A stretch of DNA of 36,104 nucleotides, from assembly GCA_945905295.1 (NCBI GenBank), contig CAMDPX010000052.1, forward strand, positions 1-36,104, given 5' to 3'. This stretch comes from Planctomyces sp. SH-PL62 (GTDB taxonomy: Bacteria > Planctomycetota > Planctomycetia > Planctomycetales > Planctomycetaceae). Both the position numbers and the translations under genes were made by a program. Under the pieces are notes generated by a model that saw only the letters and a program-made list of their open reading frames with translations, was not told the origin of the DNA and did no database searches. This document shows positions 3,138 to 35,438 of this stretch, one piece after another. The stretch's first letter is position 1; each line of letters begins with the position of its first letter.

Positions 3138-3159
3138 AACGGTCTTTCAATTTCAGTTC

Positions 3160-3219
3160 GTAGCCTGACTCTCCGAGTCGGGACTTCGTCGCAGCACCCG
3201 ACTCGGAGAGTCAAGCTAC
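3160..3219. repeat. GTAG/CTAC double-hairpin element (GACTC-TCC-GAGTC)
   Basis: GTAG (3160-3163) precedes the hairpin GACTC-TCC-GAGTC; the inverted unit GACTC-GGA-GAGTC lies at 3200-3212 and CTAC at 3216-3219. It fills the kinase to response-regulator gap. The last two kinase codons and its TGA stop are read from this element. An interrupted copy of the same family lies at 26812-26969. Confidence 0.86.
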
Positions 3220-4662
3220 GACGGCTTCCGGTTTGTTTTCCGTCTTCTTAGGTCGTTTTGAGTCGTGATGTCCCAGCGGAATCCGCATCGAGAACTTCGA
3301 GCCGACACCAACGGTGGACTCGACGGCGATGTGGCCGTTGTGCATGTCCTGGACGATCGACTGCACGAACGCCAAGCCCAGGCCGGTCCCTTTGGCCGAG
3401 TGCTGATGTTCGGGGACTCGATAGAACCGGTCGAAAATCTTCGGCAGCGATTCGAGCGGAATGCCGTAGCCGGTGTCCTCGACCGAAATGATCGCTTCCA
3501 GCTCTTCCATGTGGCTGCGAAGCGTGATGCGGCCGTTCTCCGGCGTGTACTTCACGGCATTCGACAGCAGGTTGATGATCGCCTGACCGAGCAAATCGCG
3601 ATCGACATGCACCGGCAGGTAAAGCTGACTGAGGTCCGCGACGAATTGCTGACCGCGCTCGTCGGTCAGCGGTTTGATCACGTCGATCGCCTTGTTGACG
3701 ACGTCGTTCAGGTCGCAGTCCTCGCGAGTGACCTTGACCGCGCCGCTCTCGATGCGGGCCAGGTTCAGCAGGTTGCTGACCATCCGGTTCAAGCGATCCA
3801 CCTGGTAGTCGATCTTCTCGAACATCTCTTTCTGCTCGTCAGGCTCAGAGACGTCGCCATCGACCAGCAGTTCGAGGAACGCCTTGATGCTGGCCATCGG
3901 CGTCTTGAATTCGTGAGCGACCGACGACACGAAATCGGCGTGCCGAGTCTTCGCCGACTTCTCTTCGCGCACGTCGGTCAACACCGCCAGCGTGCCGAGC
4001 AGTTCGCCCTGGTCGTCGAACAGCGCCGTCACGGTCGCACGGAATGGGACGGCCTGCTGATTGATCGTAAAGATCAATTCCGCCGTCCGCCGCGGAGCCG
4101 CTGCCGCTCGCGTGCGTGTGTCGTGGATCAACTGCTGAAACGCCACCAGCTTTTTGAGATCGCCATACGTGCCGGAAGGGGACGCCCCTTCGGCTTCGGC
4201 GATCCCTAAGTGGCGCGCGCCCGTATTCGCAAACAGCACATGGTCGCGCGTGTCGCACAGCACGACTGGCTGATCGATCGCACGCAGCGCCGCGTCCAGC
4301 CGCCGGGCTTGTTTCTTTTGCAACTTCGTGGCGACTTCCAGTTCCCCTTTCGTCGAGTTCAGCCGTTTCAATTCCGACTCGTACTGCTGCAACAGGATGA
4401 CCGCGGCTTGAGTCACTTCACCGAAGATGCCGCCGGAATTCCGTGTGCCGGAAAGTTCCGGATGTCGCAGCCGAGCCTTCGCCTCCTGCTGCCCGCGATG
4501 CACCCAGACAGCGGTCAGCAGGCTGCCGGCCACGGCCGAGACGCCCACGCACAAGGGCATCAGTACTCCCGGTGCGATGCACAACGAGAGGACGACGCCG
4601 CCCGCTCCCGCGCTCAACGCTGGCCAGCCAGAGTTCCAAAGAGTATGACGATCCCAGTTCAT
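3211..4662 (-). CDS. PAS-containing sensor histidine kinase
   Basis: A 483-residue kinase. Two hydrophobic segments lie near residues 18-54, then a short coiled region (about 90-125), a PAS-like domain (about 126-235), HisKA with the H-box 'SSVAHEFKTPMASIK' (His250), and HATPase_c with N-box Asn368 in 'INLLSNAVKYTP', the G1 box DTGYG (396-400) and the G2 box GTGLGL (425-430). All catalytic motifs are present. The ATG at 4662 has AAGGAT 8 nt upstream. The hydrophobic segments are close together, so there is little extracytoplasmic sensor. It probably phosphorylates the response regulator encoded next. The stop codon comes from the hairpin element at 3160-3219. Confidence 0.93.
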   Translation of the reverse strand: MNWDRHTLWNSGWPALSAGAGGVVLSLCIAPGVLMPLCVGVSAVAGSLLTAVWVHRGQQEAKARLRHPELSGTRNSGGIFGEVTQAAVILLQQYESELKRLNSTKGELEVATKLQKKQARRLDAALRAIDQPVVLCDTRDHVLFANTGARHLGIAEAEGASPSGTYGDLKKLVAFQQLIHDTRTRAAAAPRRTAELIFTINQQAVPFRATVTALFDDQGELLGTLAVLTDVREEKSAKTRHADFVSSVAHEFKTPMASIKAFLELLVDGDVSEPDEQKEMFEKIDYQVDRLNRMVSNLLNLARIESGAVKVTREDCDLNDVVNKAIDVIKPLTDERGQQFVADLSQLYLPVHVDRDLLGQAIINLLSNAVKYTPENGRITLRSHMEELEAIISVEDTGYGIPLESLPKIFDRFYRVPEHQHSAKGTGLGLAFVQSIVQDMHNGHIAVESTVGVGSKFSMRIPLGHHDSKRPKKTENKPEAVVA

Positions 4663-4816
4663 GCGGCACGATCCTTACGATTGACACCATCGGCGCAGCG
4701 GTGCTCCACCTTGGCCGACAAAACGTAGGTCACGTTCCGCGATGCGTCCAAAAGACAACGGAGATTTCCCCCAAGTTGCCTGGCCGGATGCCGCGAACCG
4801 ACAGCCGATCGCCGTT

Positions 4817-4852
4817 ATTTCAAATTTCAAATCTCAGATCTCAAATTTCAAA
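4817..4852. repeat. AT-rich AAATTTCAAATC repeat
   Basis: A run of ATTTCAAATTTCAAATCTC units centred on the palindrome CTCAGATCTC, ending 10 nt before the start codon of the nagA-like gene. The same family occurs in frame at 16801-16846 and at 35401-35438. It stands out by its low GC against a GC-rich background. It may displace the native ribosome-binding region of the gene. Confidence 0.7.
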
Positions 4853-12570: not shown

Positions 12571-14016
12571 TCACGCCAGCAACTTCGTCACGACATTCCC
12601 ATGCACGTCGGTCAGGCGGTATTCGCGGCCTTGGTAGCGGAAGGTCAGGCGTTCGTGGTCGAGGCCCAGCAGGTGCAGCACGGTGGCGTTGAGGTCGTGT
12701 GTGTGGACAGGATCTCGCGCGACGTTGAAACCGAACTCGTCGGTTCCGCCGTAGGAGATTCCGCCGCGGATGCCGCCGCCGGCCAGCCACATTGTGTAGG
12801 CGTCTTTGTGGTGGTCGCGGCCGGGGTCGGTCTTCTTGCCGTCGCCGTCGATCCCCTGACGCAGCGGCGTGCGGCCGAACTCGCTCCCCCAGACGATCAA
12901 GGTTTCGTCGAGCAGGCCACGCTGCTTCAGATCGCGAATGAGTGCGGCCATCGGTCGATCGACGTCGCGGCATTTCTCCGGCAGACGTTTCGTGAGACCG
13001 GAGTGATGGTCCCAATCGGAATCAAACAGTTGGACCATGCGGACGCCACGCTCGATCAACCGCCGGGCCAGCAAGCAATTGTTGGCGAACGACGCCCGGC
13101 CCGGACTCGCTCCGTAGAGTTCCAACGTGTGCGACGTCTCTTGCGACAGGTCCATCAAGTCGGGGACCGATGCCTGCATCCGGTACGCCATCTCGTACTG
13201 GCTGATTCGCGTGGCGATCTCGAGGTCGCCGACCTCGTCGAGTTGGATGCGATTGAGTGACTGCACGGCATCGAGCACTTGCCGGCGATCCTCTCGCGCG
13301 TGGCCAGCGGGGTTGCCGAGAAATAACACCGGCTCGCCGCTGGAGCGGAAGGGGATCCCTTGATAGACGCTCGGCAGAAACCCCGTGGACCACAACGACG
13401 TCCCCGCACCGCCGGGCGGGCCGGACAACAGCACGACATACGCCGGCAATTCTTCGCTCTCCGAACCGAGGCCGTAAGTCACCCAGGCTCCGAGGCTCGG
13501 CCGACCGCCCCGTCCGAAGCCGCTGTGCAAGAACATCTGCGCCGGAGCGTGATTGATCTCGTTCGTGTGCAGACTCTTCACCACGCAGATGTCGTCCGCG
13601 ACCGATCCGAGATGCGGCAACAGTTCCGAAAGCTCAAGCCCGCTTTCTCCGTGCTGGTCAAAGCGAAACCGCGGACCGGCCAATTGCATCTCGCCACCGA
13701 TGAAGGCGAAGCGTCTGCCGCGAGTCAGCTCTTCCGGACACTTCTGCCCGTCGCGCTCTTTCAACGCCGGCTTGTAATCGAACAGGTCCAATTGCGACGG
13801 AGCTCCGACCATGTGCAGATAAATAATGTGCTTCGCGCGCGGAGCCAAATGCGTCGCCTGAGCCAGCAGCGGATTGGCATGAGTCGCATCGGCCTCATCC
13901 GCTCGCAGGTCGCGCGCGAACAGCGAACCGAGTGCCATCGCTCCGAGACTCAGGCCGCTCTGCCCGAAGAATCGGCGGCGAGACACTTCCAGAAAGTCAG
14001 GCGCGTGGTGTGACAT
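12571..14016 (-). CDS. DUF1501 family protein, Tat-exported
   Basis: A 481-residue DUF1501 protein, a family related in fold to sulfatases/alkaline phosphatases and very abundant in planctomycetes. The N-terminus '[20 protein letters not shown]' is a twin-arginine signal. Typical family blocks follow: '[17 protein letters not shown]', '[20 protein letters not shown]', '[20 protein letters not shown]', '[11 protein letters not shown]' with nearby '[17 protein letters not shown]', and the C-terminal '[15 protein letters not shown]'. The ATG at 14016 has GAGGAC 7 nt upstream. It follows the DUF1553 gene, the usual genetic partner, on the same strand. The biochemical role of the pair is not settled; degradation of sulfated or complex polymers is often suggested. 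Confidence 0.92.
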
Positions 14017-14120: not shown

Positions 14121-17100
14121 TTATCCCTTGGTAATCGTTTCATCGAGATTCATCAGGGCCGAACTCACCGCGTACCACGCGGCGAATTCGGCAGGTGTCG
14201 TGTGATCGGGACGCGAGACATTCTCGAACAGCCGTTTGGCAAACGACTCGTCCGCCTCGTGACGGCGAAGTTGTTGTTCAAAGAGTTGTCGCAGCACCGC
14301 GAGTTCCTGCGGCTTCGGCGAACGAGACACAGCGATGCGGAACGCGTAGTCGATGCGCGATGCGACGTCCGCCTGCGGGCGTTCGGTGATGATCCGCCGC
14401 GCGAAGGCGCGTGTGGCTTCGACGTAGACCGGATCGTTGAGCAGCGTCAGCGCCTGTAGCGGCGTGTTGGACCGCGAGCGTTTGACGACGCAAGCCATGC
14501 GCGACGAGGCATCAAAGTTGACGAAGCTGGGATAGGGCGAGCCGCGCTTCAACACGACGTACAGGCCGCGCCGGAATTGCCGCTCGCCGGGACTGACTTC
14601 GTAGTTGTATTGCTGGCCGCCGACTTTGCGCCACAAGCCGTCGGGCTGCGGCGGCCGAATCGGCAAGCCCCCTTTGTTCAAGCTCAGCAAGCCCGCAAGA
14701 CTCAGAGCGTTGTCGCGGATCGCTTCGGCATCCAACCGGAATCGGGGGCCGCGCGCGTACCACCGGTTCAGATCGTCCTGAGCCAGCAACTCTGGAGTCA
14801 CTCGCGCGGATTGGCGATACGTGGCGGACATCACGATCAGCTTCAGCAAGCGTTTCAGCGACCAGCCCTGCTCCTGAAAGTCGACCGCCAGCCAGTCGAG
14901 CAGTTCGGGATGCGTCGGCGGTTCTCCTTTGATGCCGAAGTCTTCGACGGTTGTCACCAAACCCCGCCCGAAGATCTCCGCCCACCAGCGATTCACGGTG
15001 ACTCGCGCGGTCAACGGGTTCTCGCGCGAGACCAACCAGCGCGCCAACGTCAGCCGATTCGGTGGGCCATCCGCGGCCAACGGCAAGATCGCGGGAGTCC
15101 CCGCCGTTACCGGTTCTCCCGGCTGCGTGTATTCGCCGCGCTGAAACAGAGTCGTGCTGCGCGGCTCCCGCAACTCGCGCATCACGAGCGTCGATTCCAC
15201 TTCGAGCGCCGCGATCCGCTTCTCCAATTCGGCCTTTCGTTCTGTGAGCGGCACGGCGCTAGCCGCCGGTTGAGTCGCAGCAGGACCGGTGGCTAGCGCC
15301 ATTCCGCTCACTTTGGATCTATTCTTGGCAGCGAGCGGCGCGATGACCGAATCGGGGCTTCCAAAAACCGCCGACAATCGGAAGCAACCAATGACTCGGC
15401 CACTTCCGAAGTTCTGCACCATCTTCACCCGCAACAGCGAACCATTCGGGACATCCAACGGCTCCTCCAGCACGAACACCGCCGAATGCGACCGGTCGAA
15501 GGCCGGAGCAATCGCCCAAGCCGTCTGCAGATCACCATCGATCGCACCTGCCGCTGAGAACTTCGCTTGCTCAAACGTTGCGTGAGCCGACTTGAAGCGA
15601 AGTCGTGTGTTCTTCGTGGGTAGCCGAAGTCGTGAGACTTCGGTCTCCGAACTCTCACGAGTTCGGCTACTGGAATCAGACTTCGGCGGCACGAGTTCCG
15701 CTTCGAGTTCATGCAGCACGAAGTTCGTCCGCTGCGAGTCACCTCGACCTGGACCGCCTCCCGGCAACGACGCATGTCGCAACGTTTCCAACTGGATCGC
15801 ACTGAGTTGTTTGCCGGCAATCGGCAGCTCGACCGAATACGTGTCCTTCTCCGGAACATCGCCAGTCAGCAGGACCGAGCCGTCCGCTTGCAGCTCCGAA
15901 TCCGCACCGCTCGCGGCATCGAAGCCGTCTACTTTGAGCACCTCGACCCGCGCGGACGCGACCGCTGTTTGCTTCGGCTTCTTTTTCGGGGAAGTGGCGT
16001 CGCCTTTCGTGTCACTCGCGAGCGGCTGTGATTCGTTGATCTGACGATTCAGCTTCGCCAGTTCAGCTTTCAGAGCGGCTCGTTCGGAATCCTTCTGCGC
16101 ATCGGCCAGCGTCAGGCTGGGACCAAGAAACCGAATCGACCCGGGCACTTTCGGATTCGAGCGGTCAGCCTCGGCCTCGGTGTTGTTGAAGTACGCCAGC
16201 AGCCGGTAATAGTCGCGCTGCGTGAACGGGTCATATTTGTGGTTGTGGCACTGAGCACATTCCAGCGTCGTCCCCAACCACACGGCTCCGGTGGTGTTGA
16301 CGCGGTCGATGACCTGGTTGATCCGGCTCTCTTCCGGCTCGGTTCCCGCTTCGACGTTCGTCGGCGTGCAGCGATGAAAGCCGGTCGCAATCAATTGATC
16401 CTGCGTCGGATTCGCCAACAGGTCGCCGGCCACTTGCTCGATCGTGAATTGATTGAACGGCATGTCCGCGTTGAGCGCGTTGACGACCCAATCGCGATAC
16501 GCCCACACGTCCCGCAAATCGTCTCGCTGAAACCCATGCGAGTCAGCATACCGCGCCAGATCGAGCCACGGCCGCGCCCATTTCACTCCGAACTCATCCG
16601 ACCGCAACAACCGATCGACCAGCTTCTCGTAAGCGTTCGGCGCGGTGTCATTCACGAACGCTTCCACATCAGCCGGCGACGGCGGCAAACCGATCAAGTC
16701 CAACGACAGACGCCGTGCAAGCGTCGCGCGATCCGCTTCCGGCGACTGTGATATGCCTTCACTCACCAGCCGAGCCACAACAAACGCATCAATCGGATTG
16801 TGAATCTGAAATTTGAAATCTGAAATTTGAGATTTGAAATCTGAACCGAGCTTCGGAACCTCCGGCCGCACGGGTTTCACGTACGCCCAATGCGTCGCCG
16901 ATTCGGCGTTCTCCGGCCAATTCGCACCGCTGGCGATCCAGTCGCGGAGCACTTTGATTTCCCGCGCCGACAGCGGCTTACCTCGCGGCGGCATCGCCTC
17001 TTCATGCCCACGAGCCAGACTAACTCGACGCAGCAATTCGCTCTCCTCCGGCCGGCCGGCGATCAAGACGCGACCACTATCACCCCCGCGCAACGCCGCA

Positions 17101-18757: not shown

Positions 18758-20191
18758 TCACGCCAACAACTTTGTCACGACATTCCCATGCACGTCGGTC
18801 AGGCGGAAATCGCGGCCTTGGAAGCGGTAGGTCAGCTTGGTGTGGTCGAAGCCGAGCAGGTGCAGGATCGTGGCGTGCAGGTCGTGGACGTGGACCTTGT
18901 CGGTGGTTGCGTTGAAGCCGAACTCGTCGGACTCGCCGAGCGTTGTGCCGGGCTTCACGCCGCCGCCGGCCAGCCACATGCTGAAACAATTCGGGTGATG
19001 GTCGCGGCCGTCGTTGCCCCCTTGGACCATCGGTGTGCGGCCGAACTCGCCGCCCCAGATGACCAGCGTGTCGTCGAGCAGGCCCCGTTGCTTGAGGTCA
19101 CGCAGCAGCGCGGCGGCGGGTTTGTCGGTCGCGCCGCATTGCTCTTTGAGTCCGCCAACTAAACCGCCGTGATGGTCCCACGCTTCGTGGAAGAGTTGCA
19201 CGCAGCGGACGCCACGCTCGATCAGTCGCCGAGCCAGCAGGCAGTTGTTCGCGAAGCTCAGCTTGCCCGGTTCCGCGCCGTACATTTCGAGGATGTGTTT
19301 GGGTTCGTTGGAGATGTCCATCAACTCCGGCGCGCTGGTCTGCATCTTGGCGGCCATCTCGAAGGCACTGATTCGCGCGGCGATCTCTGGGTCGCCGACC
19401 ACGCCGAGCCGCAGTTCGTTCAACTGCCGCAGCGTGTCGAGCGATTCGCGGTTCGTCTGCGAGTCGATGCCGCGCGGGTTGTCGAGAAACAGCACCGGCT
19501 CGCCCGATGACCGGAACAGCACGCCGTTGTTGACCGTCGGCAGAAAGCCGCAGCCCCAATTCGATTGCCCGCCGCTCGGCCCCTTCTTGCCCGACGAGAA
19601 AACGATGAACCCCGGCAAGTCATGAGCCTCGCTGCCGAGTCCGTACATCGTCCACGCGCCGAGGCTCGGCCGGCCGAATTGTTGGGCTCCGGTATTCATC
19701 ATGATCTGGCCGGGAGCATGATTGAACGCATCCGTGACCATCGACTTCACGATCGCGATGTCATCGACGACACCCGCCAGATGCGGCAGCAACTCGGACA
19801 ACTCCGCTCCGCAATCGCCGTGTCGAGCGAACTTGAACTTCGGCCCCAGCAGCGTCGAGTTCGGATTGATGAACGCCGCTCGATAATTCTTGATGAGTTC
19901 CGGCGGCGGCAGCTTGCCGTCCCACTTGGCCAACTCCGGCTTATTGTCGAACAGCTCCAAATGCGAAGGAGCTCCGGCCATGAACAGATAAATCACCCGC
20001 TTCGCCTTCGGAGCGAAATGCGGTTGCCGCGCGGCGAGCGAAGTCGTTGTCGACGTCGCCGCGCCAGCTTGGTCATTCGCCAGTAGCGACGCCAACGATG
20101 CTGTCGCCAAGCCAACGCCGCAGTCTCGGAAGAACCAGCGGCGAGTGATCTGCTGACGAACATCATTGAAGGTCTGTCGCAACGAATTCAT
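18758..20191 (-). CDS. DUF1501 family protein, Tat-exported (copy 2)
   Basis: A 477-residue paralogue of the protein at 12571-14016. A twin-arginine motif lies at Arg17-Arg18 ('[20 protein letters not shown]'). Family blocks are '[20 protein letters not shown]', '[20 protein letters not shown]', '[20 protein letters not shown]', '[20 protein letters not shown]' and the same C-terminal '[12 protein letters not shown]'. GGAGG lies 7 nt before the ATG. It begins 1 nt after the stop of the retropepsin-like gene, so its ribosome-binding site is inside that gene. It is therefore the last gene of a four-gene operon with the second DUF1553 protein. Confidence 0.92.
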
Positions 20192-20921: not shown

Positions 20922-24227
<3,306 letters not shown>

Positions 24228-26811: not shown

Positions 26812-26969
26812 GTAGCCCGACTCTCCGAGGCTGTGAATAAATGACGTGGGGCACGTTTTCAACGTGCCCAATCAGCCTATTTTCGAGCACGTTGAAAACG
26901 TGCTCCACGAAAACTTCACAGTCTCTCCGAGTCGGGACTGCGACCTCCCGACTCGGAGAGTCAGGCTAC
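26812..26969. repeat. GTAG/CTAC element split by the 91-bp element
   Basis: GTAG (26812-26815) and CCCGACTCTCCGAG start a copy of the 3160-3219 family; the rest of that copy resumes at 26923 and ends with CTAC at 26966-26969. The 91-bp element 26831-26921 sits inside its first hairpin, flanked by the 9-bp direct repeat CTCTCCGAG (26821-26829 and 26923-26931). The region separates the APH-type and secreted-unknown genes. Confidence 0.85.
26831..26921 (+). mobile_element. 91-bp non-coding insertion element, copy 1
   Basis: Terminal inverted repeats CTGTGAA/TTCACAG enclose two hairpins, GGGCACGTT-TTC-AACGTGCCC and GAGCACGTT-GAA-AACGTGCTC. By reading, it is identical to the reverse complement of 32362-32452. 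It has a perfect 9-bp duplication of its target, so it moved as a unit. It encodes no protein; helper enzyme unknown. Spurious short ORFs arise from it. Confidence 0.85.
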
Positions 26970-26973
26970 GGGG

Positions 26974-28017
26974 TCAGCACGAACAAACCGCTTTGAGGCG
27001 CATTCGCAAATCGCCGAATGCGGAATCCACGCGATCCGGCGGCGACAGCAGCCAGTCGCGTGTGACCTCACGCACGAAAGACTGAGCTTCCGAAGTCAAA
27101 TAGTCCACCGTGCTCTTGCCGTCGACGCGAGCTCGCATGCAGGCGGCCAAGTGCGCGACGGTGCGTCGCTCATCGGCAGGTTGAAAATCTTCCCCACGAT
27201 AGGCGGACCAGAATGCGCGGATCATGTCGAAGAAGTCGTCCGCTCGCGCCGCATGCTTGATCGTTTTCAGCAGCAGATGGCTCAGGAAGAAGCCGAGATC
27301 GAACGCCGGATCGCCAAAGTGTCCGGTCTCGAAATCGACGAGCACGAGTCGCGGTTGCTGACCATCGCTCCCCGATTCGCTTGGCACGAGCAGGATGTTC
27401 TTGGGGCTGAAGTCGCCGAGCACCAGGCAGGTCGTCGTCGCCATTGTCTCGTCGATCAGACGTTCCAAAGCGGGACGGAGGTCGGCCTGTCGTTGCGCCA
27501 TGTAACGATAGAACGGGTCGAGCCGCAGTTCGTCGAAGATCGTGCGGTCGCCCAGCCGCTCGCGCAGGTCGGCATCGTTCGTCGTGCGCGAGTGAATCGC
27601 GGCCAGAATCTCGCCGAGCCGGTGGGCGATCGAAGCATCAACCTCGCCGTTCAGCAGGGAAGACTTCCAAACGAGGTGCTCGCGCGGGATCGCTTCCATC
27701 GCGAACAGATAATTGTCGCGGTCCTCGAATAGCCGTTTCGGCACAACGCCGGCGGGAGTCACGCGCGACAGGACATCGAGCACATCCCGCTCGCGCCAGA
27801 TGCGTTCGGGCTGGCTGAACCAAGCGGCCTGGGTGCGCAGTTGTGCTCGCGATTGTTTGACGACGAAGTCCTCGCCACTGGGAACGCCAACGCGCATCAC
27901 CACGTTGGAGACTCCGCCGGACAGCGCTTCCGCGTACGACTTCGCCGCATCCGCCGACGATAGCCGGCCGGTGCGACCGAGGTAATCAATCAGGTTGTCG
28001 GGACCGAGTTCGAGCAT
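26974..28017 (-). CDS. APH-family small-molecule kinase
   Basis: A 347-residue protein of the aminoglycoside phosphotransferase/choline kinase/methylthioribose kinase fold. The N-lobe has 'LSGGVSNVVMRVGVPSG' and the ATP-binding Lys54 in 'DFVVKQS'. The catalytic loop is 'LGDFSPKNILL' (Asp202, Asn207; the usual HGD is LGD here), and the metal-binding Asp228 is in 'VDFETGHFGDPAFDLG'. The Gly-rich start and 'DFETGHFGDPAFDLGFFLSH' recall 5-methylthioribose kinase-like proteins, but the substrate cannot be told. Phosphorylation of a sugar, choline-like compound or aminoglycoside is possible. The start at 28017 lacks a strong Shine-Dalgarno. Confidence 0.82.
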   Translation of the reverse strand: MLELGPDNLIDYLGRTGRLSSADAAKSYAEALSGGVSNVVMRVGVPSGEDFVVKQSRAQLRTQAAWFSQPERIWRERDVLDVLSRVTPAGVVPKRLFEDRDNYLFAMEAIPREHLVWKSSLLNGEVDASIAHRLGEILAAIHSRTTNDADLRERLGDRTIFDELRLDPFYRYMAQRQADLRPALERLIDETMATTTCLVLGDFSPKNILLVPSESGSDGQQPRLVLVDFETGHFGDPAFDLGFFLSHLLLKTIKHAARADDFFDMIRAFWSAYRGEDFQPADERRTVAHLAACMRARVDGKSTVDYLTSEAQSFVREVTRDWLLSPPDRVDSAFGDLRMRLKAVCSC

Positions 28018-28030
28018 GAGAGTTGTCCGG

Positions 28031-28124
28031 GGTCAGGCACCGCAGAATTCAGAATTGGCGGAGCAGCAGGTTCTTAGCAGTCGCAGCTCAATTCCGCCAA
28101 TTCTGAATTCTGCGGTGCCTGACC
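28031..28124. repeat. Perfect 32-bp inverted repeat between divergent genes
   Basis: Arms starting GGTCAGGCACCGCAGAATTC and continuing AGAATTGGCGGA match exactly over 32 nt, with a 30-nt spacer. It fills most of the 244-bp gap between the divergent APH-type and TolC-like genes, so it sits in both promoter regions and could form a cruciform. No other member of this family in the window. Confidence 0.85.
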
Positions 28125-28261
28125 GCGGCCAGCCGAATGCCAATATCCAGGTTGCTCCAAAAATCCTGGATTGACTAGCATCCGGCCCCGTCACTTTTCT
28201 GCGAATCGGCCCCTCCTCCTCCTCCCCTCTCATTCCCAACTCCCTTTCTCATTGACCCAAG

Positions 28262-30130
28262 ATGAACTGTGGGCGATCACGTTTGGTGTTCTGCCTTGCC
28301 TGGAGCCTTGCGATGTCGCTGGGCGGCTGGGGCTGCGCACATTTTCCGGACTCGACTGCCGACAGATGGAGCGACCAGACGCCCAAGGGATCGACTGCCT
28401 CACCACACATTGGAGCTGGCGTGACTCCCGCAACATTGACTGCCGGATCAGAGACGGAATCTTTTTCGGGATTGTCTGCGACGGCTCCGCCAATTGGTGG
28501 CAGCGGTACGCCGCCGCTCAATCTCGCGTCCGCGCCGCGTCGGCCGCTGGCGTTGCAGCAGGCGGTGCTCATGGGGTTGCGGCGATCGGAAATCGTGCGC
28601 ACGTTGAGCGGTTCGGTGCGCATCGAACCGATCACGACGCTGGACCCGTCGATTGCCGATGCGGAATTCCGCAAGGAGTCGGCGCGGTTTGATTCAAAGG
28701 CTTCGGCGGCTTACATCGGGGGACAGATCAATCAGCCGCCAGACTCGTTCTTCGGGCCGGGCTTGGAAACGAATACGCGGCGCGACGAAGCGAACTTCGC
28801 GGCCGGTCTGGAAAAGCTGTGGCCGTGGGGGACGACGACGCGAATCATCTACGACCCCTCGCTGGGCTATTTATTTTTTCCGCAGGGAACGTCAAGCGGC
28901 TTCAACCCGGCGTACACGACGACGACCGTGTTTGAAGTGCGGCAGCCGTTGTTGCGGGCCGGTGGTTGGAAGGTGAACACGGCTCCGATTCAGATCGCGG
29001 CGGCGCGAGCGGATCAGACGCAGTGGGAGGTCACGCAGGTGACGATCGCGCAACTGCGCAGCATCACCGACGCGTACTGGAAGCTGCACGCGGCCATGAT
29101 TGCGTTGCAGGCTGTCGAATCGGTGCTGCCCTTGGGCGAGGAAGTCGTGCGGATCGAGCAACTGCGGTTGGAGTCGCAGCGGTCGATCTACATGGACGTC
29201 GCGCGAGCCAGCGTGAATCTGGAGAACCTCAAGCGGCAGCGCAGCCAGGCTCAGCTCGGTGTGGTGCAGTGCGAATACGACTTGCGACAGTTGCTGGGAA
29301 TGCCCGCCAGCGACGGGACATTGCTGACGCCGATCGACACGCCGGTCCAGTTCAAGACGAGCTTCGATGTCGGGACGCTCGTGCAGACGGCGTACACGCG
29401 GCGTCCCGATTTGAATCGCCGCCGCTCGCGGCGCGAGGAACAGGAGTGGCGACTGGTGGCCGCTCGCAATGGCAAGCTGCCGCAGCTCGACTTGCGGGCG
29501 CTGACTCGCACCAGTGGGTTGGATGCGCGGTTGGACGATTCGCTGAATCAGTTATCGACTTTCGAATACACCGATTGGACCGTCGGTCTGGAGTTCTCGG
29601 TGCCGCTGGGCAATCGCCGCGCGAAAGCGGATGTCGAGTCGGCGGAACTGCAACTGATGCGCGAACTGGCCTTGTTGCGCGGGTTTGAAGAGCAAGTCGT
29701 GTTTGAGTTCGCCGGGCTGATTGCCGAACTGCAAACGACGTGGGAGCGTTACGAAAGCGCGCAGCGGCAAGTGCAGTACACGCAGGAGTGGCTACGTCTG
29801 GCGCGCATCCGCTTCGCGAGTCCACCGGCCGCCAATCGCGGCGACGATTGGTTGCTGCTGGCGTTGTACGACTATCAGGTCGCGATGCAGTCCTACATCA
29901 CCGCGCTCAGCACGGCCAGCCAGATGCTGGCCGACTACAACACGCTGCTGGTCCGCATCGAGGAAGCGCAGGGCACGTTGTTGGATCGGTGGCAGATCCA
30001 GTTCTCCGATGATCAGCAGATTCCACCAGCGGCAGCGCCCGTGCCGACGAGCGCCTCGCCCAACATTGGCGGTCACTCGATCGTCAGCCAGGCTATTCCA
30101 CCAGTCCGAGAACCGGCCGTTGCGCGTTGA
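28262..30130 (+). CDS. TolC-like outer-membrane efflux protein
   Basis: A 622-residue protein of the outer-membrane factor type. A lipoprotein-like signal (residues about 8-25, 'LVFCLAWSLAMSLGGWGC', Cys25) precedes a Thr/Ser/Pro-rich linker (26-95) and the OEP body. It has two long coiled-coil helices ('IAQLRSITDAYWKLHAAMIA' to 'LENLKRQRSQAQLGVVQCEY', and a second set from 'AKADVESAELQLMRELALLR' to 'LADYNTLLVRIEEAQGTL') with beta regions 'EVRQPLLRAGG' and 'GLEFSVPLGNRRAKADVE'. These form a channel for export together with an HlyD-type adaptor. A candidate adaptor is the M50/HlyD fusion at 32908-35394, separated by the Tad genes. The last 38 nt overlap the convergent TadG-like gene. Confidence 0.88.
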   Translation: MNCGRSRLVFCLAWSLAMSLGGWGCAHFPDSTADRWSDQTPKGSTASPHIGAGVTPATLTAGSETESFSGLSATAPPIGGSGTPPLNLASAPRRPLALQQAVLMGLRRSEIVRTLSGSVRIEPITTLDPSIADAEFRKESARFDSKASAAYIGGQINQPPDSFFGPGLETNTRRDEANFAAGLEKLWPWGTTTRIIYDPSLGYLFFPQGTSSGFNPAYTTTTVFEVRQPLLRAGGWKVNTAPIQIAAARADQTQWEVTQVTIAQLRSITDAYWKLHAAMIALQAVESVLPLGEEVVRIEQLRLESQRSIYMDVARASVNLENLKRQRSQAQLGVVQCEYDLRQLLGMPASDGTLLTPIDTPVQFKTSFDVGTLVQTAYTRRPDLNRRRSRREEQEWRLVAARNGKLPQLDLRALTRTSGLDARLDDSLNQLSTFEYTDWTVGLEFSVPLGNRRAKADVESAELQLMRELALLRGFEEQVVFEFAGLIAELQTTWERYESAQRQVQYTQEWLRLARIRFASPPAANRGDDWLLLALYDYQVAMQSYITALSTASQMLADYNTLLVRIEEAQGTLLDRWQIQFSDDQQIPPAAAPVPTSASPNIGGHSIVSQAIPPVREPAVAR

Positions 30131-31403
30131 TGTCGGCTCCACTGAGTCGCACATACGAACCTTTTTCGATCGACAGCTTGCGGCAAATGATCGATGCGGC
30201 CAATGAACCGACGATGCTGACGCCGCCATCGTCTTCGAGATCATAGTCTTCGCTTTCGGACTCCCAGTCTTCGTCGGAATCCAAATCGGTGTTCTTGAAT
30301 TTCACCTCGGAATTGGGAGCGTAAATGATCCCTGAGAAATCGAGATCCTTGTCGTTCCTGAACTCGATTTTGCTCTTGGAACCACCGTTTTGAAACAATG
30401 TCACTCCTCGGTAGGTTCCTGTGGTTGGCGGCGACAGAGTGATATTGCCGCTGCCCTTAAACTTGGCCCCCTTTTTTCCCGCGCTATAGATCGTCACGCC
30501 ACTCCCGTCGATGCTGCAGGAGTCCTTGAGCGAGATCTCACCCTCGACGTAGTACGTGCCGGGTGACAGTTTGATGAGGTCGTCCTTATCAAACTTCAAT
30601 TCTTTGTATTTTCCCGGTAGCAGATTGAATACGTCCCGGCCGCCAACACTCGTCTTGAAATCCTTGGGGTCTCGGTCGGTCCCCTTGGCCGGCGAGGGAA
30701 GCGAGGCCAATGGATCAGGGGACGGTTCGACACCCGTCATGACGGTGGCGTCGATTAACCCTTTCGATTTCTTGTCGATCCCTCCGGCCACAAGCAGGTG
30801 GTTGGCGATGAGCTGGGCTTTCTTATCCACCTTCACCGCGCGTTTGTTGGCCGAGTTGACGATCACATCACCCGCGACTTCGAGCGTCGAGGTTTTGCCC
30901 TTCAGCTTGAGTGAGTCTTTACGTTTGGGGTCGAGCACCATCACGCTGGCCCGGCCGGATCCGATGGTCCCCCCCGCAACGGCGCGGGTGGTCACAATGA
31001 GATCACCCTTGCCAAAGACGGAGCTGAAAGTGCGGCTGATCGGTGCGTTGATAATCACTTCCACATAACCAAGTTGTCCCGCAAACGAACCGGACTCCGG
31101 AGGGATATTCACGGTCACCGTGTCCGGAGCGTATCCGTTGCCACGGGCGAGTTCTAAAGCCGAGGCCCGTGCGGCCCCGTCGCCATCCCGTCCACCGAAT
31201 TTCTCCCGAGTCGCATACAGTGCGATGCCCGCCGCATCGGCCGCCGCGTCGGCTGCGGCTTGGGTGTTTCGTCGTTCGCGGTACAGACGGCCCGCATCAA
31301 CCGCCAAGGCCGTCACACCAATCAGGAGAATCAGACTGACGGCGACGATCACCATCACCGCCCCTGTTCGATCCCGTATCCGACGAACTTGTTGTTTTCG
31401 CAT
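30093..31403 (-). CDS. TadG-like pilus assembly protein (Tad domain)
   Basis: A 436-residue protein with a prepilin-like N-terminus: a basic start 'RRIRDRTGAVMVIVAVSLIL', a membrane segment (about 14-36) and then 'LAVDAGRLYRERRNTQAAAD', the hallmark of the Tad N-terminal domain found in TadG proteins. The rest is strand-rich and predicted extracytoplasmic, with a long Lys/Asp/Gly-rich region, an acidic patch 'NTDLDSDEDWESESEDYDLE' and a beta-helix-like end ('GVTIYSAGKKG', 'GSLAASIICRKLSIEKGSYV'). Classical TadG ends with a VWA domain; I see no clear MIDAS motif here. GGGAC lies 7 nt before the ATG. It is the last of three pilus genes. Confidence 0.82.
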   Translation of the reverse strand: MRKQQVRRIRDRTGAVMVIVAVSLILLIGVTALAVDAGRLYRERRNTQAAADAAADAAGIALYATREKFGGRDGDGAARASALELARGNGYAPDTVTVNIPPESGSFAGQLGYVEVIINAPISRTFSSVFGKGDLIVTTRAVAGGTIGSGRASVMVLDPKRKDSLKLKGKTSTLEVAGDVIVNSANKRAVKVDKKAQLIANHLLVAGGIDKKSKGLIDATVMTGVEPSPDPLASLPSPAKGTDRDPKDFKTSVGGRDVFNLLPGKYKELKFDKDDLIKLSPGTYYVEGEISLKDSCSIDGSGVTIYSAGKKGAKFKGSGNITLSPPTTGTYRGVTLFQNGGSKSKIEFRNDKDLDFSGIIYAPNSEVKFKNTDLDSDEDWESESEDYDLEDDGGVSIVGSLAASIICRKLSIEKGSYVRLSGADINAQRPVLGLVE

Positions 31404-31421
31404 GATTGTGTCCCGCCAGAG

Positions 31422-31865
31422 TCAGTTCGAAACCAATGCGTTCGAGGTGCTGGAAAACATCACCTCTCCAAAAAACGCCTCCGCGACCCAACGGTAATTC
31501 ACCGTCACCGCAACAGTTCGCCGATCCGCGCTCCAGGCCAAGTCGTAAGTCAGCTTGCTCGGATCAAAGCCGACGGCTCGCGTCTTGATGACTTCGTTGT
31601 AGAGGTCCGTGGTGGTCACGGCTGACAGTCGATTGTTCCGGCTGTCGTAGTTCTTGCCATGCACGGACGCCCAACGGGCACCGGCATGAGCCAATGCGGC
31701 CACTTGGTTGTAGCGAAAGATTCCCAGCCCCATGACCACCAGGCCAATCATGGTCAGAATGAGCACCGGACTGACCAATGCAAACTCCACGGTGGTCGCT
31801 CCCCGACGGAGACGGCCGGGATTTCGGGAAGCTGGCAGCGGCGGTCGAAGACGGACAAGTCGCAT
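31422..31865 (-). CDS. TadE-like pseudopilin
   Basis: A 147-residue TadE-like protein. The motif 'RRGATTVEFALVSPVLILTM' gives the Gly-x-x-x-Val-Glu pattern of prepilin cleavage sites, with the hydrophobic helix at about 23-48 and a globular C-terminal part. TadE/TadG pseudopilins belong to the tight-adherence (Flp) pilus machinery. It starts 4 nt after the stop of the other TadE gene and ends 18 nt before the TadG start: one operon. No TadA/B/C ATPase or platform genes are in the window. Confidence 0.85.
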   Translation of the reverse strand: MRLVRLRPPLPASRNPGRLRRGATTVEFALVSPVLILTMIGLVVMGLGIFRYNQVAALAHAGARWASVHGKNYDSRNNRLSAVTTTDLYNEVIKTRAVGFDPSKLTYDLAWSADRRTVAVTVNYRWVAEAFFGEVMFSSTSNALVSN

Positions 31866-31869
31866 GAGA

Positions 31870-32286
31870 TTAGGTCTCTCTTTCCAAGACCGCGGCTGGG
31901 TACATGCGAGCGCGCACCGTTCGCGTGATCGTTACGGATGACGGTGTGGCGATGACCGGGTGGAAGGTGTAGTTCACGGTGACTTCGTAGTAACGGTTTC
32001 CCACGCCATCGATGCCATCCCGGCTGGTGAAGGTCGGTGGGGGACTCAAGTCGCTCGCGCTGGCGAGAATGGCCGCCTCGACAGTCGCATAGGGCGAATT
32101 GTCGGCCATGTCTGGATTGCTCAGATACATGGCACCCATTCGAGCGCTATCGGCCACGACCTGAGTGCAACGATAAACGCGCGCAAAATCGTTGACCGCC
32201 ATCAACGGCACGAGTAGCAGCGGAAACACCAACGCGAATTCCACAGCAGCGGTCCCGCGTCGAGGATGAGATCTCCGAGTTGTCAT
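31870..32286 (-). CDS. TadE-like pseudopilin
   Basis: A 138-residue TadE-like protein, first of the three pilus genes. 'RRGTAAVEFALVFPLLLVPL' is the prepilin-type segment (membrane helix about 14-34), followed by 'YRCTQVVADSARMGAMYLSN' as usual for TadE, and a strand-rich C-terminus. The ATG at 32286 has an AAAGAG-like site 9 nt upstream; the frame is open further, but only through palindromic repeats. It differs clearly from the second TadE, so the two are likely distinct minor pseudopilins. Confidence 0.85.
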   Translation of the reverse strand: MTTRRSHPRRGTAAVEFALVFPLLLVPLMAVNDFARVYRCTQVVADSARMGAMYLSNPDMADNSPYATVEAAILASASDLSPPPTFTSRDGIDGVGNRYYEVTVNYTFHPVIATPSSVTITRTVRARMYPAAVLERET

Positions 32287-32320
32287 TGTCACACACTCTT
32301 TGGGGCGGCGAAGCCGCAAT

Positions 32321-32471
32321 GTGGCACGACGCTCCGCGTCGTGAATCGCGACGCGGAGAGCCTGTGAAGTTTTCGTGGAGCACGTTTTCAACGTGCTCGA
32401 AAATAGGCTGATTGGGCACGTTGAAAACGTGCCCCACGTCATTTATTCACAGCCTCGGAGCATCACGCCAC
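32321..32471. repeat. CGACGCTCCGCGTCG element split by the 91-bp element
   Basis: GTGGCACGACGCTCC at 32321-32335 is mirrored by GGAGCATCACGCCAC at 32457-32471 (about three mismatches). The left unit is a CGACGC-TCC-GCGTCG hairpin. The 91-bp element 32362-32452 breaks the right unit between CGCGGAG (32352-32358) and CTCGGAG (32454-32460). It lies upstream of the pilus operon. Confidence 0.75.
32362..32452 (-). mobile_element. 91-bp non-coding insertion element, copy 2
   Basis: The same element as 26831-26921 in the opposite orientation, with no difference that I can see over 91 nt. It sits inside another palindrome, again at a hairpin with a TCC loop; flanking repeats are imperfect (core CTCCG-x-G on the minus strand). 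Identity despite 5.4 kb distance points to recent movement or gene conversion. Confidence 0.85.
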
Positions 32472-32676
32472 AATCTTGCAGAAAAAATATCGCCTTCGGC
32501 GATAACGATGTCGGTCCTCCCCGGTGATGTCCAAACACATGCAACCGCCGTGAATGGACAGAAAGGGGAATTTGAAGAAAGGATCGCTCATCAAAACACT
32601 AGCTCACCTTTTCAGAGCGTGCGGTCACTTTGTCGAGGAAGCGCGAATGAACTCAACGAATGCGCATTCGCCTGCG

Positions 32677-32809
32677 GGCGTAAGCCCAATGGCACTTACT
32701 TTGAGCGGAATGGCGCTAGCCACCGGTGTTGTGGGTGTGATGTTCCTCGCGAAATACCGGCGGCTAGCGCCTCGCCGCTCACTAAAGTCAGTGCCATTGG
32801 GCGTAAGCC
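32677..32809. repeat. Long compound palindrome with GGCGCTAGCC core
   Basis: Outer arms GGCGTAAGCCCAATGGCACT on the left and AGTGCCATTGGGCGTAAGCC on the right (close but not exact inverted repeats), with inner units GGCGCTAGCC (32712-32721) and GGCTAGCGCC (32762-32771). The inner part is the family seen in frame at 15244-15311. It lies in the 621-bp gap between the pilus and M50/HlyD genes. A plus-strand reading frame over it is repeat-derived; the gap holds no gene I can support. Confidence 0.75.
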
Positions 32810-35394: not shown

Positions 35395-35400
35395 GATGCG

Positions 35401-35438
35401 GATCTGAGATTTCAAATCTGAGAGTTGAGATTTGAAAG
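35401..35438. repeat. AT-rich AAATCTGAGA repeat at a gene junction
   Basis: GATCTGAGATTTCAAATC and following GAGAGTTGAGATTTGAAAG units between the ParB-like and M50/HlyD genes. It supplies the last residues and stop of the ParB-like protein and the region just before the M50/HlyD start. Same family as 4817-4852 and 16801-16846. Confidence 0.7.

Follow-up and report, generated by a model that had tools for sequence, protein, structure and literature searches.

Wrapped REPINs: putative non-autonomous mobile elements in the loops of REP hairpins of a planctomycete genome

The 36,104-nucleotide window analyzed here, which is the whole of contig CAMDPX010000052.1 (C52) in the 8.6-Mb draft genome of Planctomyces sp. 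SH-PL62 (GCA_945905295.1), contains two inverted copies of a 91-bp element, at positions 26,831 to 26,921 on the plus strand and 32,362 to 32,452 on the minus strand. From the sequence comparisons described below, we conclude that these copies are probably the cores of small non-autonomous mobile elements, hereafter wrapped REPINs, that insert into the loops of repetitive extragenic palindromic (REP) hairpins. The unit consists of a REPIN (REP doublet forming a hairpin) as passenger, namely, two inverted REP hairpins of a family resident in the genome, set between the constant arms GAGSCTGTGAA and TTCACAGSCTC; it would enter the apical TCC loop of a hairpin with the apex CNC-TCC-GNG and leave the loop sequence at both of its ends. 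Loci (L) and genomes of relatives (G) are cited by number, the relatives in public collections being planctomycete metagenome-assembled genomes (MAGs).

The two window copies match at all 91 bp, as the initial annotation had stated, and no such pair arose in 100 shuffles. The exact pattern CTGTGAA-N62..90-TTCACAG was found 97 times genome-wide, against none for the reversed control pattern. With a mismatch-tolerant pattern combined with similarity, by which each copy was gathered with both flanks, at least 107 copies were obtained including those with diverged ends: 43 of type A, to which the window copies belong, and 64 of type B. In both types, the body is 91 bp long. Type A carries the hairpins GGGCACGTT-TTC-AACGTGCCC and GAGCACGTT-GAA-AACGTGCTC, and the type B body reads GGTAGCTGAACTCGCCAGAGTTCAG ... 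CTGAAGTCTGGCGACTTCAGCTACC. Mean pairwise identity was 96% among A copies and 98% among those of B1 and of B2, and the outer flanks of the copies were unrelated (27–30% identity). No Rfam family matched in the window.

Copy 1 interrupts the hairpin GACTC-TCC-GAGTC of a GTAG REP. The 5′ half of this REP, consisting of the GTAG tag and the CCCGACTC arm (26,812–26,823, plus strand), has known intact equivalents, and the 3′ half is the GAGTCGGG arm (26,929–26,936, plus); the TCC loop stands on both sides, at 26,824–26,826 and 26,926–26,928, in an invariant C-TCC-G junction. The partner hairpin of the same REPIN, GTAGCCTGACTC-TCC-GAGTCGGG, is intact (26,947–26,970, minus). Copy 2 interrupts a GACGC-type REPIN in its second hairpin, which reads GATGC-TCC-GCGTC on the minus strand; the 3′ half of this hairpin, GCGTCGCG (32,347–32,354), and its 5′ half, GTGGCGTGATGC (32,460–32,471), both given for the minus strand, adjoin the loops read as GGA at 32,355–32,357 and 32,457–32,459. 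Next to it, the intact partner REP hairpin GTGGCACGACGC-TCC-GCGTCGTG occupies 32,321–32,343 on the plus strand, with CACGACGC-TCC-GCGTCGTG at 32,325–32,343. An empty REPIN of the target family, with both loops uninterrupted, lies at 3159–3221 (plus), and three intact TCC-loop hairpins of target families occur in the window (at 3171, 26,957, and 32,333). The annotation was therefore right to place both copies in TCC-loop hairpins and to point to intact and interrupted targets within one window. Its parallel with IS1397 is apt for the target only; its description of the invader as a non-coding double hairpin also holds, but it missed that the two hairpins form a REPIN of a kind found unwrapped elsewhere in the genome.

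On the TCC strand, the junction reads stem-C-TCC-GAGS-CTGTGAA ... TTCACAG-SCTC-TCC-G-stem′. The three bases after the left TCC are GAG in 101 of the 107 copies, and those before the right TCC are CTC in 99, irrespective of the target, whereas the target arms vary (GACTC/GAGTC, GTCAC/GTGAC, CACAC/GTGTG, and GACGC/GCGTC); only TCC, or at most CTCCG, is repeated in the GTCAC-, CACAC-, and GACGC-type targets. Because the arms stay constant whatever the target and the target arms do not, the repeat left by insertion is the loop TCC (3–5 bp), and the element is 97 to 99 bp long, GAGSCTGTGAA...TTCACAGSCTC, rather than 91. Whole copy 1, GAGG-CTGTGAA ... TTCACAG-TCTC, accordingly spans 26,827–26,925 (99 bp, plus), and whole copy 2 spans 32,358–32,456 (minus). 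The perfect 9-bp duplication reported around copy 1, CTCTCCGAG, is partly coincidental, since GACTC/GAGTC targets happen to extend the element's own CTC and GAG ends; as the true repeat it was ruled out by its failure in GTCAC-type targets. A duplication in most copies was nevertheless borne out, TCC being kept on both sides in 90 of 107.

Short and non-coding, with 11-bp inverted arms and the loop repeated on both sides, the elements have the terminal inverted repeats (TIRs) and target duplication of miniature inverted-repeat transposable elements (MITEs). They could thus be MITEs of a DDE insertion sequence with IS3/IS1397-like target choice, having TIRs of about 11 bp, a 3–5 bp duplication in the REP loop, and REPINs hitch-hiking inside. 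The inverted ends and the repeated loop are what this explanation predicts, and for the IS3-family element ISPsy8 a 3-bp repeat has been described where it splits a REP hairpin at the symmetry axis (PMC1525189). We nevertheless consider it rather unlikely for the CTGTGAA elements, which show a near-absolute polarity (see below) despite symmetric 11-bp ends; every version seen also carries REPIN-like palindromes. Only five rve matches are present in the genome, and no larger element with these ends was found: about half of the possible subterminal sequence space was searched, and the sole match in the genome, to GAGGCTGTGAANNS, was a coding one due to chance, so the autonomous relative anticipated by the initial annotation did not emerge. 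The elements also differ from the IS3 family (IS1397/ISPsy8) in being non-coding and in their ends, GAG...CTC, instead of a transposase between TG...CA.

The targets are GTAG-tagged REPs of five stem families, nearly always split at the TCC loop. Some 99 to 104 of the 107 copies lie within hairpins, and three (L047, L053, and L064) are clearly outside. The target arms pair at stem positions 2, 4, and 7 in 98, 93, and 93 of the 107 copies, compared with permuted means of 46, 49, and 52. Free sites were counted on 1.03 Mb, or 12% of the genome. With a crude intergenic mask that excluded open reading frames (ORFs) of at least 150 amino acids, the estimated occupancy of CNCTCCGNG sites was 0.29 for hairpins, as opposed to 0.056 for non-hairpins. 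Of the eight "non-hairpin" copies, five turned out to be REP cases (tandem, shifted, or rearranged), and the remaining three give a non-hairpin occupancy of about 0.02. Hairpins with the motif are occupied several-fold to more than 10-fold more often than intergenic non-hairpin sites with the same letters. Intact empty hairpins of the target families are present in the same genome: within the 1.03 Mb, the free tagged C-TCC-G hairpins numbered 18 for gggac, 14 for gactc, four for gtcac, three for cacgc, two each for cacac and gacgc, and one for gggtc, and 19 were occupied. The gggac family (GGGAC-TCC-GTCCC), the sole large family without a CNC/GNG apex, was occupied in 0 of 18 cases versus 19 of 45 (p = 0.0005). 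These results show that the target motif is CNC-TCC-GNG and that letters and stem pairing both matter, where the annotation had proposed hairpin structure or CTCCG as the guide. We also observed that the GTAG tag is often GTCG in occupied REPs (nine GTCG versus 11 GTAG for type A in GACTC targets; examples in the A-copy flanks L003, L006, L010, L013, L017, L025, and L028) and rarely so in empty ones (one versus approximately 22; p = 0.003), either by decay after insertion or by target preference.

Several insertion sequences, namely IS1397, ISPsy8, ISPpu9/10, ISPa11, and IS621, have all or most of their copies in REPs, some at the symmetry axis (PMC1525189). These carry a transposase gene, whereas the invader here is non-coding, about 100 bp long, and itself made of REPs. 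It can also be envisaged that a DEDD recombinase of the IS110/IS1111 type mobilizes the elements in trans by means of a guide RNA, TCC being the core and the REP loop the target. IS110-type elements have a fixed orientation, a core at both ends, and a circular intermediate, which counts in favor of this explanation. So do the REP targets known for elements of this type (PMC1525189) and their guide RNA (PMC11187229, PMC11208160). We regard it as improbable all the same: the single IS110 gene of the genome lacks these ends and has unrelated surroundings, and the target stems (GACTC, GTCAC, CACAC, and GACGC) vary with compensatory changes that one would not expect a guide RNA to track. The elements themselves are non-coding, without the DEDD recombinase and guide RNA of an IS110/IS1111 element.

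Types A and B have a common wrapper and different bodies. In both, the body is a REPIN with two inverted REP hairpins and a GTAG-like tag, arranged as GGTAGC-hairpin...hairpin-GCTACC in B and as GTGG-tagged hairpins in A. Unwrapped REPINs resembling the B passenger were found at L160 (9173–9237), L167, and L168, and those resembling the A passenger at L155, L157, and L162. Single copies from five relatives hold yet other bodies in the same wrapper. A strict search of 84,980 species genomes added five records, all MAGs and all planctomycete by name or kinship; two of these, L243 and L245, have inverted arms of the GGGACTGGC/GGACAGGCACC type instead, and the passengers differ among A, B, G110, G112, L243, and L245. 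An order-wide search for the element ends gave background counts only outside the genus. Wrapper and target are constant, and the REPIN-like cargo is exchangeable. Two public MAGs labeled Candidatus Kuenenia stuttgartiensis (L246 and L247; CAMAWN and CAMDPK) look mislabeled, since a genome search places them among the kin of this genus.

The orientation of the elements relative to the TCC strand, the strand reading CTCC, is 43:0 for A, 14:0 for B2, and 44:6 for B1; of the six exceptional B1 copies, two are recombinants that have a left-type flank on each side. The B2 body is nearly that of B1 in the opposite orientation. In the sister genomes G108 and G109, 20 diverged A-like copies with TTGTGAA ends occupy the same kinds of site, and about 18 of them have the same polarity, with one clear reversal and the others decayed. 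A, B1, and B2 therefore show the strand-specific insertion 3′ of a short target that characterizes IS200/IS605-type elements. A rule that predicted polarity from the base next to CTGTGAA fitted A, B1, and B2, and it was rejected because it fails in G110 and G112. Insertion polarity and the exchangeable passenger had both escaped the initial annotation, as had a second wrapper family about 230 bp from copy 2, which is described below.

Nested insertions and orthologous sites bear on whether the composite of REP and insert has instead spread as a unit, through the transposase of the target REP or by gene conversion, after few nesting events. Both hairpins of one REPIN contain an element, 36 nt apart, at L051, L072, and L073, and L005 is similar. 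Exactly 209 bp (window 32,300–32,508), comprising both the REPIN and the element, are missing from G112 at the copy 2 locus, and at the copy 1 locus, G106, G107, G110, and G113 lack both as well. The annotation had proposed a comparison of empty sites; an intact REP without the element was looked for in the relatives at these two loci and not found, the whole REPIN being absent there. Joint absence in G112, REPINs with both hairpins occupied or recombined (L051, L072, L073, L034, and L097), and the fixed orientation within subfamilies would agree with spread as a composite. We judge this very unlikely, because the same element occurs in five REP stem families and three non-hairpin sites, its copies have unrelated outer flanks, partner hairpins are frequently uninterrupted, and A keeps its targets in the sister species. 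At L073 (473–817), three B elements stand in a row with a 127-bp period, the middle one between two 3′ REP halves, which suggests recombination of neighboring nested elements.

At L021, a B1 and an A element form a tandem with one common TCC, producing the joined-end sequence TTCACAGCCTC-TCC-GAGGCTGTGAA. The joined-end hairpin, TTCACAGSCTC-TCC-GAGSCTGTGAA, folds with −11.2 kcal/mol, and its apex is of the same kind as that of the target. Joined ends of this kind would also be formed in a circular intermediate. Since they fold with a target-like apex, the simplest explanation for this family (W1) is an exchange between two similar hairpins: strands would be exchanged within the loop between the joined-end hairpin of the element and the target hairpin, and the asymmetry of the TCC core would set the orientation and transmit it. 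Orientation would then be inherited, with a rare flip founding a new lineage, because the core copied with the element must match the target. Polarity, REPIN cargo, a size of about 100 nt, and the transposase content of the genome, in which 13 Y1 genes outnumber the one IS110 gene and the five rve matches, fit an enzyme of the Y1/HUH type acting on single strands. Our preferred proposal, which we put forward tentatively and at somewhat less than even confidence, is therefore that wrapped REPINs are inserted by loop strand exchange, the best candidate for the enzyme being a Y1/HUH transposase of the REP-associated kind acting in trans. The logic by which guide tetranucleotides work in IS200/IS605 has been described, as have the class 3 HUH proteins of planctomycetes (PMC6006769), and single-stranded REPs are cleaved at CT, with a guide role for GTAG (PMC8266576).

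The second wrapper family, W2, has the arms GCCCAATGGCAC ... GTGCCATTGGGC, and the hairpins that it splits, at their GTCA loop, belong to another REP family (GGCGAGCGGGG-GGC-GTCA-GCC-CCCCGGT). The window copy, GCCCAATGGCACTTACTTT-[REPIN]-AAAGTCAGTGCCATTGGGC, occupies 32,684–32,802 on the plus strand (119 bp) with GTAA at both ends (32,680–32,683 and 32,803–32,806). About 28 copies with a common junction, most of 119 bp, were collected from this genome and its relatives (L312, L313, L314–L329, and L330–L346), and their passengers are of at least three kinds, including GTAG REPs in G112. Empty W2 targets are also present in the window, among them a REPIN of the targeted kind, GGCGAGCGGGGGGC-GTCA-GCCCCCCGGT, at 22,850–22,942. 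W2 repeats the architecture of W1, so the wrapper design is general; however, the simple model of an inherited core cannot be transferred to it unchanged.

Several observations weigh against strand exchange by a Y1/HUH transposase. W2 is not polar: a count by eye gave approximately 13:9 for its two orientations. Two W2 copies have concordant variant loops, GTAA/GTAA in the window copy and GTTA/GTTA at L346. Such concordance fits target-loop duplication as produced by DDE transposases, and for W2 the DDE explanation fits better than Y1/HUH; in W1, no concordant variant loops were seen. The constant part of the elements is the wrapper and not the REP hairpin, which would be unexpected of an enzyme that recognizes REPs, and to our knowledge no REP transposase leaves the loop at both ends. 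None of the 13 Y1 genes of the genome or the 47 Y1 loci of relatives is flanked by the wrapper. In addition, the REP transposases studied to date cleave at a CT next to the hairpin rather than in its loop (PMC8266576). A cognate REP-associated tyrosine transposase (RAYT) would be flanked by the A or B REPs, but these are absent for a few hundred bases around each of the 13 Y1 genes and, at close range, from the 47 loci of relatives as well. The IS110 and rve hits of the genome likewise have no link to the elements. As a side observation, two Y1 genes (L147 and L148, on C225 and C147) lie amid many GTAGGTTGGGAC-TCC-GTCCCGACC REPs, a TCC-loop family never used by the elements.

Among known systems, REPINs, which are REP pairs mobilized by RAYTs, resemble the passengers most closely, having paired inverted GTAG-type hairpins, families that also occur unwrapped in the genome, and more than 100 copies. 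Constant outer arms, insertion in the loop of another REP, and a loop sequence at both ends are, as far as we know, not part of any described REPIN. In Anabaena variabilis (GTAG-15) and Halothiobacillus neapolitanus (CGTC-1), a REP dimer lies in a conserved outer palindrome, as here; the outer palindrome was not found without REPs in those two species, and no insertion into other REPs was described (PMC3733652). By contrast, the wrapped unit in the present genome sits inside a second, pre-existing REP for which empty sites are known. TIR-flanked tyrosine transposases have been described (PMC3733652), and in TIRtrons/TIRYT inverted repeats are tied to Y1 transposases (PMC3733652, PMC6006769). 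Several Y1 genes here have long inverted repeats (L143–L145), but no examined Y1 gene is flanked by the CTGTGAA wrapper.

In the open-licence literature, our searches revealed no REPINs described as lying in a mobile wrapper that inserts into REP loops. It is possible, although we hold it with more doubt than the proposal above, that the elements represent a previously undescribed recombination route, in which a hairpin circle, composed of a REPIN and the joined-end hairpin, exchanges strands with a chromosomal hairpin loop; this route would serve at least two wrapper families (TCC and GTCA) with exchangeable REPINs and make REPs mutual cargo and landing sites. The manner in which REPs and REPINs spread is not settled: REP transposases cleave single-stranded REP DNA in vitro, but integration has been difficult to observe. 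This one genome provides more than 100 insertions whose ends are clear, in a defined target and with fixed polarity. Empty sites are available for comparison, as are sister species at different stages; together, these features make the strand-exchange site readable from sequence and testable. If hairpin loops are truly the landing sites, this would be a natural case in which the shape of DNA guides insertion as much as its sequence does.

Other features of the window were also noted. A TadE-like ORF is called at 31,870–32,442, so that its start ATG at 32,442 falls inside copy 2; since the G112 alignment ends at 32,299, the true start is probably further inside. An inverted repeat, GGGGTCAGGCACCGCAGAATTC..., at 28,024–28,131 is of the GGGGWSAS type reported to adjoin TIR-flanked tyrosine transposases. 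Long direct repeats with 70–84% identity pair 12,571–13,383 with 18,758–19,549 and 14,846–15,057 with 21,662–21,873, and their spacings of about 6.2 and 6.8 kb correspond to a duplicated gene block. Finally, AT-rich repeats of the TCTGAAATTTGAAATC type lie at 4812–4852, 16,785–16,853, and 35,397–35,437, and comparable tracts occur in G075.

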